Shown one piece after another: positions 1 through 36,630 of a DNA stretch of 36,630 nt (position 1 is the stretch's first letter; every line of letters begins with the position of its first letter). Made by a program: the position numbers and the translations under genes. The notes under the pieces are model-generated. The model was not told where the DNA came from. It made no database searches and worked only from the letters and a program-made list of their open reading frames with translations. Source of the stretch: a virus; the IMG/VR virus record IMGVR_UViG_3300036761_001879, positions 1 to 36,630 of that record. One strand, given 5' to 3'.

Positions 1-126
1 CCTGGCCGATAAGCTCCAGGGGATGAGCGACCCGCTCGAGCGCGCGAAACTCCTTACCGAAATGTTTGGGAAGAATTGGTCGGTGCTCACGCCCATTCTT
101 TACCAGGGCGGGGATGCCCTGCGCGC
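1..126 (+). repeat. Terminal direct repeat, left copy (assembly overlap)
   Basis: Bases 1-126 are identical to 36465-36590. The next 40 bases are homologous but differ at 11 positions. Most differences are synonymous in the tape-measure frame. This reads as a circular or permuted genome with two alleles sampled at its ends, rather than a fixed terminal repeat. Confidence 0.9.
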
Positions 127-1624
127 CCAAGCACACGCAGTCGCGGACGGCCTCATCCTCACGGACGCGGCTTCGAAAAAGACGCGCGAGTACGAGGTGG
201 CAGTTGACGCGCTGAAGGATTCGATTACTGCCCTCAAGCACCAGGTCGGGCTGACGGTCATCGACATCTGGCTCAAGATTCGCACCGCGCTTACGTCAGA
301 CACAACATCCGCGCAGGCGGCCGCCGACGCCCAACAGCGCTCGCTCCGCGAGGCCAACATCCGAGCGGCCGAGGGTCGAGGCGTCCAGACGGGAATGGTC
401 GCTGGGGGCACATCCGCCACAGTCATTGCCCAGCGGACAGCCGCCGCGACGCAGGCGGCCATCGACCGGGAGCGGGCAATCAGGCAGGAGACGACGTGGG
501 GCCTCGCCGTGGGCACGAGCGCCCGAGAGGCGCGGCGCTTGGCTATTGCGACAGACAGCCTTGCCATCGCCAAGCGTGAAGTGACCCGCACGCAGGACCG
601 CATGAGCGAAGGGCAACAGGCCTGGAATGGGTTTGCCCAGGATGCCGCGGGCAGACTTGAGAACATGGTCGGGCATGGCAAGAGATACGAGGCGGGTCTG
701 CAGGCGATCGACAAGGCCACGGGCTCCAACCTCTATGGAGCCTTCCAACTCGACAAACAGCAGCGAAAGCTCGAGGTTGATTTCGCCCGCGGCAAAATCT
801 CGGCCGAGCAGTATGGCAAGGGCATCGCGGACATCGGCAAGGCGAAGGGCCTCACGCCAATGGACACTGTTATTGAAACCGCAAACGCAGCCATTGCGCG
901 CGTGGGAGAAGTTCAAGCGTCACTCAACGCCATGCGAGACAAGATTGTAACCATTTGGGTCAGGACACTGCCCCTGCCTCCCGGCACCACGGGCGGCGGC
1001 TGCTTCGTCGCCGGCACGCCGGTCGACTGCCCGGGCGGCCGGCGCCGCGTCGAGCAGGTGAGGGTCGGCCAGCGAGTCGTAGTCTACATCCCGTTGACCG
1101 GTGCCCGCATCACCTCGCGCGTGGTGAAGACAACGCGGGTCGCCCGCGACGATCTGGTCAGCCTCTACACCTCGCAGGCCGAGATCCTCGGAATCAGCCC
1201 GAACCATCGCTTCCTCACCACCTCGGGCGAGTTCGTCGAGGTCGGGCGGCTGGCCGTCGGCACCCGCCTGGTGACGAAGTACGGGCCGGCCAGCGTGCTG
1301 CGGGTCGTGCGCTTCCCGGGCGAGCACGAGGTATACAACCTGGAAGTCGCGCACCCGGCGCACACTTACCTGGTGGCCGGGCACGTCGTTCACAATGCGA
1401 AGTCCGGTGGCCAGTTCGGACTCGACATGATCGTCCCGCCAGGCTACAACGAAAACTTCCCGGTGATGGCCGGCTCGGGTGAGCGGGTCACGGTCGAGAC
1501 GCCCGGCATGCAGTCCTCGCCGCATGCGGGTGGCGGCCCGGTCATCGGCACGGTCAACGTCGGCAACGAGATCGACGAGCATGACCTGCTGGCCAAAGTC
1601 GCGCGGCTGTCAGGGAGGCACTGA
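2..1624 (+). CDS. Tail tape-measure protein, C-terminal part, with embedded Hint domain (5' end continues from 36040)
   Basis: This is the downstream part of the tape-measure protein that starts at 36040; the frame is open from base 2. Joined across the circle the protein would be 682 residues. The tape measure sets tail length and lines the tail tube. The N-terminal part here is Ala/Gln-rich and helical. A 132-residue Hint domain follows (bases 1001-1396). The C-terminus then resumes with AKSGGQFGLDMIVPPGYNE and GERVTVETPG, which resembles the glycine-rich end common in tape-measure proteins. The stop overlaps the next start as TGATG. Bases 127 to about 985 look less GC-rich than their surroundings. 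The tape-measure call rests on position after the frameshifted chaperone gene, on the helical and hydrophobic character, and on the C-terminal motif. Confidence 0.85.
   Translation: MADKLQGMSDPLERAKLLTEMFGKNWSVLTPILYQGGDALRAQAHAVADGLILTDAASKKTREYEVAVDALKDSITALKHQVGLTVIDIWLKIRTALTSDTTSAQAAADAQQRSLREANIRAAEGRGVQTGMVAGGTSATVIAQRTAAATQAAIDRERAIRQETTWGLAVGTSAREARRLAIATDSLAIAKREVTRTQDRMSEGQQAWNGFAQDAAGRLENMVGHGKRYEAGLQAIDKATGSNLYGAFQLDKQQRKLEVDFARGKISAEQYGKGIADIGKAKGLTPMDTVIETANAAIARVGEVQASLNAMRDKIVTIWVRTLPLPPGTTGGGCFVAGTPVDCPGGRRRVEQVRVGQRVVVYIPLTGARITSRVVKTTRVARDDLVSLYTSQAEILGISPNHRFLTTSGEFVEVGRLAVGTRLVTKYGPASVLRVVRFPGEHEVYNLEVAHPAHTYLVAGHVVHNAKSGGQFGLDMIVPPGYNENFPVMAGSGERVTVETPGMQSSPHAGGGPVIGTVNVGNEIDEHDLLAKVARLSGRH
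1001..1396 (+). other. Hint (intein / bacterial intein-like) domain inside the tape-measure protein
   Basis: Residues 476-607 of the joined protein. It opens with Cys in CFVAGTPV (intein block A), has ISPNHRFLT with the S-x-x-H form of block B, VYNLEVAHPAHTYLVAG (block F) and ends HVVHN (block G). The next residue is Ala, not Cys, Ser or Thr. The 132-residue length fits a mini-intein or bacterial intein-like (BIL) domain with no room for a homing endonuclease. Family knowledge: Hint domains with a nucleophile at +1 splice, while BIL domains without one can cleave or splice by other routes. The outcome here (splicing, cleavage of the tail protein, or no activity) is inference. Confidence 0.85.
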
Positions 1625-34010: not shown

Positions 34011-34442
34011 ATGATCGACCCGCTCGAAACCGTGATGGCCTTCCTGAAGCTCGACGGCGAGCTGACGACCCTGGTCGGCGACCGCATCGCGGCCAAGCGG
34101 CGCTTCGGCCAGGCCGGCCAGGCCGCCTGGACGACTGGGCAGACAGCGCTGGTCGTGCGCCTGAACGGCGGCCGACCCAACATCGACGTCGAGGTGCAAG
34201 AGGTCTCGATCGAGGCGCGCTGCTTCGCCGGGTCGGCCTTCGAGGCGATGAAGATCTGGATGCGCCTGGTGCACCTCTCGCGCGAGGGCGTGCGCGAGCC
34301 GGTCAATACGAGCCTCGGGCTCGGGCTGCTCTACAGCTTTCTCTCGGCCTCCGGGCCGTCGCTGCTCTGGGACCCGGAGGTCGGTATGGACTTCGTCGCG
34401 TCGTTCTTCGACGCCACGGTCGCGGAAGGAGCTCTCGCATGA
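34011..34442 (+). CDS. Tail terminator protein
   Basis: 143 residues. DPLETVMAFLKLDGELTTLV followed by GDRIAAKRRF, then TALVVRLNGGRPNIDVEVQE and VSIEARCFAGSAFEAMKIWM is the alpha/beta layout of gpU/gp17-type tail terminators, which cap the tail tube. The C-terminal strands (EVGMDFVASFFDATVAE) agree. The stop overlaps the next start (ATGA). Confidence 0.7.
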   Translation: MIDPLETVMAFLKLDGELTTLVGDRIAAKRRFGQAGQAAWTTGQTALVVRLNGGRPNIDVEVQEVSIEARCFAGSAFEAMKIWMRLVHLSREGVREPVNTSLGLGLLYSFLSASGPSLLWDPEVGMDFVASFFDATVAEGALA

Positions 34443-34729
34443 AGAAGACTGAAGCGCAGGATAAACTCGGCGGGCCGAGCACCGGTGCCGCGCGCCCGGG
34501 CGGACCGGACGCCTCGGAGCTGGTGACCGTGCAACTCTTGGGCGCCAACGAGCAGACAGGCCTCGGGCAGCCGGGCTCGATCGTACAGGTCGCCCGCGGC
34601 ACCGCCATTCGCATGCACCGCATGCGCCTGGCCGAGATCGTCACGTTTGAGCCGGCGGCCGCGCCCCTGCGGCAGCCGGTCGCACCGGCCGAGTTGTCGG
34701 CGGCCGCAGACGAGGAGAGTGAAGCATGA
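34439..34729 (+). CDS. Small protein before major tail protein, unknown
   Basis: 96 residues between the tail terminator and the major tail protein, overlapping both (ATGA at each end). A disordered N-terminus (KLGGPSTGAARPGGP), a beta-rich core (SELVTVQLLGANEQTGLGQP; IVQVARGTAIRMHRMRLAEI) and an acidic Ala-rich tail. The tight coupling suggests a tail-assembly part. No recognised family. Confidence 0.55.
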   Translation: MKKTEAQDKLGGPSTGAARPGGPDASELVTVQLLGANEQTGLGQPGSIVQVARGTAIRMHRMRLAEIVTFEPAAAPLRQPVAPAELSAAADEESEA

Positions 34730-35301
34730 CAACGGGCTACGACTTGCTGACGGGCGTCGGCCGCATCTATATCGCGCCCCAGGGAACGGCCTTCCCGGCG
34801 CTCAACGCGGCCGTCGCCTCGCCCTGGCGTGATCTGGGCGAGACCGAGGGCGGCGTCAAGGTCGCCTTCGACGACAAGCTCGAGGAGAAGATGGTCGACC
34901 AGGAGACCGGCCCGGTCAAGGTCTGGCGCACCGAGGAGCACGTCACGATCGAGACCAAGCTCGCCACCGCCACGCTGGAGAACCTGGCCGACGTGCTGGG
35001 CGTGGGCGTCGTCACCGTGCCGGCCTCGGCCGGCGTGCCAGCCACGCGCGCGGTGCCGATGTACGCGGGCTTCCCGGTCAAGGAGTATTCGTACCTGTTC
35101 CGCGGCTTCTCGGCCTACGCTGACTTCCCGGCGCAATACGAGCTCATCCGCGGCTACTTCGGCGGGGCCTCCGAGCTCGACCACCAGAAAGGCGCCTCGA
35201 CGCCCATCTCCTGCAAGTTCTTCGCCCTGATCAATCTGAACGCGGGCGGCGATGCGGAGAAGTTCGGGCGCCTGATTCACCAGACCGGCGCGGCCCTGTA
35301 A
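34726..35301 (+). CDS. Major tail (tube) protein
   Basis: 191 residues. DLLTGVGRIYIAPQGTAFPA followed by WRDLGETEGGVKVAFDDKLE, KVWRTEEHVTIETKLATATL and FRGFSAYADFPAQYELIRG reads as the phage tube-protein fold, with the early GxTEGGV segment typical of siphovirus tube proteins. Many copies would build the tail tube around the tape measure. It directly precedes the chaperone genes. A 51-base gap with nothing notable follows. Confidence 0.8.
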   Translation: MTTGYDLLTGVGRIYIAPQGTAFPALNAAVASPWRDLGETEGGVKVAFDDKLEEKMVDQETGPVKVWRTEEHVTIETKLATATLENLADVLGVGVVTVPASAGVPATRAVPMYAGFPVKEYSYLFRGFSAYADFPAQYELIRGYFGGASELDHQKGASTPISCKFFALINLNAGGDAEKFGRLIHQTGAAL

Positions 35302-36047: not shown

Positions 36048-36630
36048 TCAAAGTCTCGGCAGAGCCGTCCTCGACCTGGACGCGAACGACCAAAAGCTGC
36101 AGGCCAAAATCGGCGGGGTGAAGTCGAGCGTCCTGGGCAGCTTCGGTGCCATCGGCTCAAAGGCGCAGGGGCTCGCCAATAGCATGCTGGGCGGCCTGGG
36201 GCTGCCAGCCATCGCTATCGGCGGCTTGGGCGCGGCGGCGGCCATCGGCTTTGCCGCGACGGCCATCGTCAAAGCCACCACCGAGACCGTCGCATGGGCG
36301 AAAGAGAACCGCGACCTCTCGCGCAACCTGGGTATATCGACCGAAGAGACCTCGCGCCTGATCGAGGTCGCCGACGACTGGGGCATCACCAGCGGGCAGG
36401 TGTCGACCGCCCTCGAGATGGCGGTCAAGCGCGGCTACCGGCCGACGATTGAAAACCTCGCCACCCTGGCCGATAAGCTCCAGGGGATGAGCGACCCGCT
36501 CGAGCGCGCGAAACTCCTTACCGAAATGTTTGGGAAGAATTGGTCGGTGCTCACGCCCATTCTTTACCAGGGCGGGGATGCCCTGCGCGCTCAGGCAGCC
36601 GCCGTCGCAGACGGGCTCATTCTCACCTCC
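36040..36630 (+). CDS. Tail tape-measure protein, N-terminal part (continues at base 2)
   Basis: 197 residues to the window edge from ATG 36040 (GAGGAATCAGG upstream). It starts with GRAVLDLDANDQKLQAKIGG, the short phage-tail tape-measure N-terminal motif, followed by a long hydrophobic stretch (about residues 45-80, GGLGAAAAIGFAATAIVKAT) and helical sequence (NLGISTEETSRLIEVADDWG). The same frame resumes at base 2 through the 126-base overlap. The last 40 bases differ from bases 127-166 at 11 positions. Confidence 0.88.
   Translation, partial: MADQSLGRAVLDLDANDQKLQAKIGGVKSSVLGSFGAIGSKAQGLANSMLGGLGLPAIAIGGLGAAAAIGFAATAIVKATTETVAWAKENRDLSRNLGISTEETSRLIEVADDWGITSGQVSTALEMAVKRGYRPTIENLATLADKLQGMSDPLERAKLLTEMFGKNWSVLTPILYQGGDALRAQAAAVADGLILTS
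36465..36590 (+). repeat. Terminal direct repeat, right copy
   Basis: Identical to 1-126. The following 40 bases (36591-36630) are a diverged homologue of 127-166, giving AAAVADGLILT against AHAVADGLILT in the protein. Confidence 0.9.

Follow-up and report, generated by a model that had tools for sequence, protein, structure and literature searches.

A predicted Hint domain between the ruler and the tip-binding end of a phage tape measure protein

For siphophages it is still debated how, and at which stage of assembly, the tape measure protein is cut or leaves the tail tip; the cutting has been described as proteolytic. The IMG/VR virus record IMGVR_UViG_3300036761_001879 raises the question of whether a tape measure might instead carry its own cutter, as within its tape measure gene there lies an in-frame Hint domain, the fold of inteins and their relatives. 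The whole record, 36,630 bases, is the stretch of DNA analysed here and is referred to as the window. The reading that we favour, tentatively, is that this domain is an autoprocessing module resembling the A-type bacterial intein-like (BIL) domains, and that its net effect is cleavage between the ruler and the tip-binding end of the protein. That reading starts from what the analysis shows of the domain, i.e., its predicted fold, its catalytic residues, where it sits, how it recurs, and the constraint on it in a second lineage of tape measures.

The Hint domain and its host protein

A preliminary description of the locus, made from its letters alone, had pointed to a domain with a Cys start, an SPNH motif, an HVVHN end, a length of 132 residues and Ala at the +1 position, all of which are present in the sequence: positions 1001-1396 (+ strand, as are all features of the tape measure and tail genes given below) read CFVAGTP...SPNHRF...VYNLEVAHPAHTYLVAGHVVHN, 132 residues (476-607 of the tape measure), and then Ala. 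The N-terminal nucleophile, Cys1 (Cys476; 1001-1003), directly follows a Thr-Thr-Gly-Gly-Gly flank (986-1000). Block B contributes Ser66-Pro-Asn-His69 (domain residues 66-69; 1196-1207), and block F His121-Thr-Tyr (1361-1369), where VY is followed by Asn, the majority state among the 49 Hints that we aligned. Block G is His131-Asn132 (1391-1396), its Asn (Asn607; codon 1394-1396) being the predicted site of cyclisation, and the residue at +1, Ala608 (1397-1399), offers no nucleophile. Cys1 and the terminal His-Asn were selection criteria for most rows of the alignment, while no selection was made for His69, which is invariant in 49/49. At the position of Ser66 the usual residue is Thr (45 Hints, with Ser in 4). 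Gly stands at -1 of Cys in 39 of the 49, a set partly selected for GG, and most relatives share Gly at both -1 and -2. In this set, which is mostly from tail-type hosts, the +1 residue is K in 19, G in 10, A in 7, I in 5, D in 3, T in 2, M in 2 and N in 1. Judged from the alignment, all of the catalytic residues of a Hint are intact in the window.

Several lines of comparison converged on the fold. The Pfam families PT-HINT (E = 9.8e-6) and Hint_2 (E = 1.5e-5) match the window slightly below the Pfam cut-off, and the closest solved relative by sequence in phmmer was CthBIL4 of Clostridium thermocellum (2LWY, E = 4.5e-7). A profile hidden Markov model (HMM) built from the 48 other Hints, i.e., with the window excluded, matched the full tape measure with E = 3e-35, and of 999 shuffled tape measures none was reported against it. 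AlphaFold2, given the 49-sequence alignment, predicted the domain with a predicted local distance difference test score (pLDDT) above 90 and its flanks with low confidence. Foldseek placed 2LWY first among structures matching this model (E = 1.9e-10), as did VIA-align (Z 21.6, 1.4 Å over 133 residues, 29% identity). The second-ranked fold match was the Tetrahymena domain BIL2 (6Y75) with inteins close behind, so that the preference of the predicted fold for BIL domains over inteins is slight. The structure prediction that had been proposed as a check thus gave the horseshoe Hint fold that had been claimed, and the model confirms the assignment of 1001-1396 as a Hint domain.

That the host protein is a tape measure, as had also been claimed, is borne out by its family match, by its position behind the major tail protein gene and by its C-terminus. 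The PHROG tape measure family phrog_8125 matches residues 1-86 of the fragment read at the start of the window (E 7e-5), and the genes on the contig run from the large terminase (Pfam Terminase_6N) and portal to a tail terminator (34011-34442; phrog_123, E 0.0016), a major tail protein (34726-35301; phrog_117, E 1.6e-9) and the tape measure. Behind the Hint, Ala608 and the residues up to the stop form a C-terminal module of 75 residues (1397-1621), in agreement with the approximately 75 first proposed. Among 50,697 phage records this module matched annotated tape measures only, namely those of the Sphingomonas phages Lucius and Kharn. These matches are weak (E = 0.05-0.09), but the shared motif GGQF...GERVTVETP is plain to see, and a shuffle test gave z = 7.1. 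It also matches the C-terminus of a tape measure-like protein from a viral contig, L007 (VPPGY...SGERVTV, z = 4.8). An insertion just before a conserved tape measure C-terminus, as initially described, is therefore what the comparison with these three proteins supports.

The numbering of these residues depends on the record ends. The open frame at the start of the window (2-1624) comprises the C-terminal 540 codons of the gene and its stop, in which the Cys of the Hint is codon 334, and Cys476 seems wrong there because the gene begins in the last part of the contig (36040-36630). The two ends overlap within the gene, bases 1-126 being identical to 36465-36590, and the protein sequence is also the same (LADKLQGMSDPLERAKLLTEMFGKNW). 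A virtual join restores a tape measure of 682 residues, 143-682 of which are those of the open frame, with exactly the Cys476, Asn607 and Ala608 of the preliminary description; our suspicion of a misnumbering was dropped. Past the identical 126 bases the end copy has eight substitutions in its last ~36 bases (window 1-162 versus 36465-36626), a pattern suggestive of strains that occur together and vary in the tape measure gene. Elsewhere in the window are two DNA methyltransferase genes (PF01555; 15982-17364 and 19277-20563), the former ending in a further methyltransferase domain.

Recurrence in tape measures and other tail proteins

Relatives were gathered from two alignment-based scans of viral contigs; when viral contigs were scanned with one sequence at a time (the Hint and C-terminus together, the downstream gene, or the N-terminal part of the tape measure), no relatives came out. 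Judged by sequence comparison, the Hint-bearing tape measures, that of the window included, represent at least four types, with the Hint in the same location, and the Hint of the window is not unique. The best populated lineage, (i), consists of eight proteins of 1059-1558 residues with tape measure-like C-termini, one of whose genes (L084) sits behind a tail-assembly chaperone gene. Lineage (ii) consists of L007 and L140, long tape measure-like proteins with 45% identity in the coiled part, the Hint at the same place and Ile or Thr at +1, and lineage (iii) of a single protein (L005) whose C-terminus matches PHROG tape measures and whose +1 residue is Ile. The tree has five changes, one of them forced, and is compatible with a single origin of the tape measure Hints or with several.

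Constraint on the domain is evident in lineage (i). Its tape measures are 31-52% identical in their N-terminal parts, and the mean pairwise identity is 0.577 within the Hint versus 0.395 on its N-terminal side and 0.405 on its C-terminal side. In 28/28 pairs the Hint is more similar than the N-terminal part. Cys, His and His-Asn are unchanged, with +1 being A in five members, I in one and K in two. An acceptor for canonical splicing should be easily gained by mutation and yet is absent, which argues that the reactions under selection are those of the Hint itself. As the Hints of lineage (i) form one clade (97/84 support) and are the best-kept segment of their tape measures, they appear to be old and retained.

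For the lineage of L140 and L007, the Hint-free tape measure L196 allows an empty-site comparison. It runs collinear with L140 until just before the Hint (31.6% identity, E = 4e-124), and the C-termini match as well (E = 0.002 when the two sequences are compared alone); the spacing of the two matching blocks differs between the proteins by roughly the length of a Hint. What flanks the Hint in L140 is therefore one chain in this relative. For the window's own lineage the Hint-free relative is only a distant one, the Lucius tape measure.

The residue at +1 went with the type of host among the loci of the first scan, where host type was assigned from the flanks and not by blind classification: enzyme-like hosts (flanks such as VDE|C) had Cys or Ser at +1 wherever the end was resolved, resolved tail-type hosts with GG|C had A or I, and K stood at +1 in another group, in which Ser precedes Cys. 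Two candidates did not survive inspection, i.e., L168 as a tape measure (the match reached residue 205, and the protein was without tape measure features) and MT836326 (L002) as a virion protein, which is RHS-like. A scan of genome contigs found Hints mostly in polymorphic-toxin-like or RHS-like bacterial proteins, not in prophage tape measures, and among the matches listed from the 50,697 phage records there was no cultured phage with a Hint in its tape measure.

Hints were also found in other proteins associated with the virion. Five gpJ-type central tail fibre or tip proteins have one near the N-terminus with Gly-rich flanks; two of them (L019 and L133) carry the Pfam domain FNIII-A_GpJ and another (L021) has two Hints in tandem. 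Seven phage proteins end at the Hint with His-Asn-Lys-stop, most with Gly-Gly before Cys, and two of these, the virion-associated L091 and L103, belong to phrog_358/DUF4815. Cultured phages are represented by gp112 of Erwinia phage Alexandra (L200:3017-4459), whose annotation is virion structural protein, and by Alcaligenes phage Afa-NA1 with a putative tail protein (L199:4032-5462), both proteins with a Hint near the C-terminus, and by gp28 of Achromobacter phage JWF (L201:3077-4528), a virion or tail protein with a Hint. For a Hint at the C-terminus there is hardly any partner left for splicing, and this supports cleavage or conjugation as the common activity. Self-processing Hints could quite possibly be a recurrent, selected device of tailed-phage tails, placed at glycine-rich joints of tape measures and of gpJ-type tip proteins, and C-terminally in further proteins associated with the virion, to cut or conjugate without a protease during tail maturation. 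Separately, six proteins of a related C-terminal group end in HN-GGGNKR or similar, and in eight viral-contig proteins the Hints are followed by Lys-Ser, Lys-Gln or Lys-Thr; three of the latter have two Hints each and some have proline-rich tails.

Cleavage weighed against its rivals

What we infer from these features is that the Hint reacts, in which order its steps follow, and when they fall during tail assembly. After folding, the Gly475-Cys476 bond would undergo an N-S acyl shift to give a thioester, Asn607 would cyclise and thereby break the bond to Ala608, and release of the Hint would part the 475-residue ruler from the 75-residue tip-binding module. Net cleavage is favoured since Ala608 is unable to take part in transesterification. 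Such a chemistry has precedents: type A BILs, which have a His-Asn end and no +1 nucleophile, form an N-terminal thioester, undergo Asn cyclisation and mostly cleave (PMC4031507), and a BIL ends just before the released toxin in some CdiA proteins of Pseudomonas (PMC9086364). Self-cleavage is further supported by the location of the Hint exactly between the ruler and the conserved C-terminus, by BIL domains being the closest structures to a domain with a full catalytic set, by the fixed Cys, His and His-Asn of the best-conserved segment in lineage (i) with its A, I or K at +1, by the divide between enzyme hosts with C or S at +1 and GG|C tail-type hosts without, and by the virion-associated proteins ending HN-K-stop, which cannot splice with their Hint.

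The most serious rival, though somewhat less likely, is splicing by aminolysis, in which Ala608, once its amino group is free, would attack the thioester at Gly475, so that the Hint is excised and a contiguous tape measure of 550 residues (TTGGG-AKSGGQF) results. The preliminary description held that standard splicing chemistry was not available. This stands for the class 1 route, as the Cys, Ser or Thr at +1 of canonical class 1 inteins is replaced by Ala in the window and by A, I or K in lineage (i); it does not stand for aminolysis, since A-type BILs without a +1 nucleophile are reported to splice in this manner to some extent, besides cleaving (PMC4031507). For the same reason its two outcomes, cleavage or ligation to another molecule, made an incomplete list, rejoining of the two halves of the tape measure being possible too. 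Removal with religation is attractive, as the ruler lies close to the lumen of the tube and could hardly accommodate a folded domain there, and the closest structure is that of CthBIL4, which reportedly performs trans-splicing "without nucleophilic side chains", as the title of a cited reference puts it. Against aminolysis, cleavage prevails in type A BILs (PMC4031507), and one review has them unable to ligate their flanks (PMC7765530), so that the sources differ. Selection for splicing should moreover have produced Cys, Ser or Thr at +1, where all eight members of lineage (i) have A, I or K, and splicing leaves the Hints at protein C-termini unexplained. Self-cleavage has points against it in turn. 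The Hint-free tape measures L196 and Lucius keep both flanks as one chain, a state that splicing would restore and cleavage would not. Early cleavage would free the tip-binding end before assembly, so that a control of timing would be needed, and the first step might be slowed by having Ser66 where Thr is usual. Lastly, no close relative of the window's tape measure was found, so that constraint is seen only for another lineage.

The remaining rivals are less probable. Conjugation, i.e., attack on the Gly475 thioester by an amine such as a Lys side chain of another tail protein, would join the ruler covalently to the tip. It draws on the Lys isopeptide bonds made by Tetrahymena BIL2 (PMC8616854), the second-best fold match, on the recurrent Gly-Gly before Cys and on Lys being the commonest +1 residue among relatives, but the acceptor protein is hypothetical and the window has Ala at +1, with Lys at +2, and we regard it as improbable here. 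We would give no better chance to a Hint that does not react and is a folded structural element, e.g., one that plugs or spaces the junction of ruler and tip; a fold may be put to non-catalytic use, and the activity is an inferred one, but such an element would have no need of catalytic residues that are invariant across lineage (i) and all present in the window. Least probable is an intein in decay, on its way out after losing its endonuclease and +1 nucleophile. Its mini size, the Ser for Thr in block B and the Hint-free L196 would fit, whereas the age and retention of the lineage (i) clade, and the loss of not one catalytic residue in the window, would not.

Known systems and meaning for tail assembly

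The tape measure Hint can be set beside several known systems. A-type BILs such as CthBIL4 share with it the Hint fold, Cys1, the block B His, the His-Asn end and the want of a +1 nucleophile, but their hosts are non-conserved bacterial proteins with hypervariable regions, not a phage tape measure, and on account of its host we call the domain A-type-BIL-like rather than a classic BIL. The pretoxin Hint (PT-HINT, PF07591) of polymorphic toxins and CdiA, to which the window has its weak Pfam match and to whose proteins several of its genome matches belong, likewise directly precedes a C-terminal module and may set it free; the module behind the window's Hint is a conserved tape measure C-terminus and not a toxin. 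Canonical phage inteins, e.g., of terminase, helicase and ribonucleotide reductase, have the same fold, Cys1, His and His-Asn, yet have Cys or Ser at +1 when resolved in the same scan, where the window has Ala and no endonuclease. Tetrahymena BIL2 acts behind Gly-ended domains and can form isopeptide bonds, but belongs to a eukaryotic polyubiquitin locus and differs in its +1 context. The Hedgehog Hint is a fold match only; in Hog domains a sterol-recognition region for cholesterol transfer lies behind the Hint, where the window has the tape measure module.

Functional parallels are the tape measures pb2 of T5 and gpH of lambda, in which a break near the C-terminus separates the ruler from a C-terminal peptide, which in T5 stays in the tip (PMC10038345). 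Their maturation is described as proteolytic, whereas the cutter of the window would be part of the tape measure itself, making it a self-catalysed counterpart. No description of a Hint in tape measures, whether of the host or of the recurrence, was found in the open-access literature searched (the original BIL surveys being outside this scope). What was known already is thus the A-type-BIL-like chemistry and fold, and what is new, as far as that literature shows, is the tape measure host and the recurrence. A Hint inside the tape measure would make the cutting event intramolecular, and virion proteins would join the known hosts of BIL-type chemistry. From the recurrence of the Hint in tape measures and other tail proteins, it seems that self-processing of these proteins is part of tail maturation in some phages.
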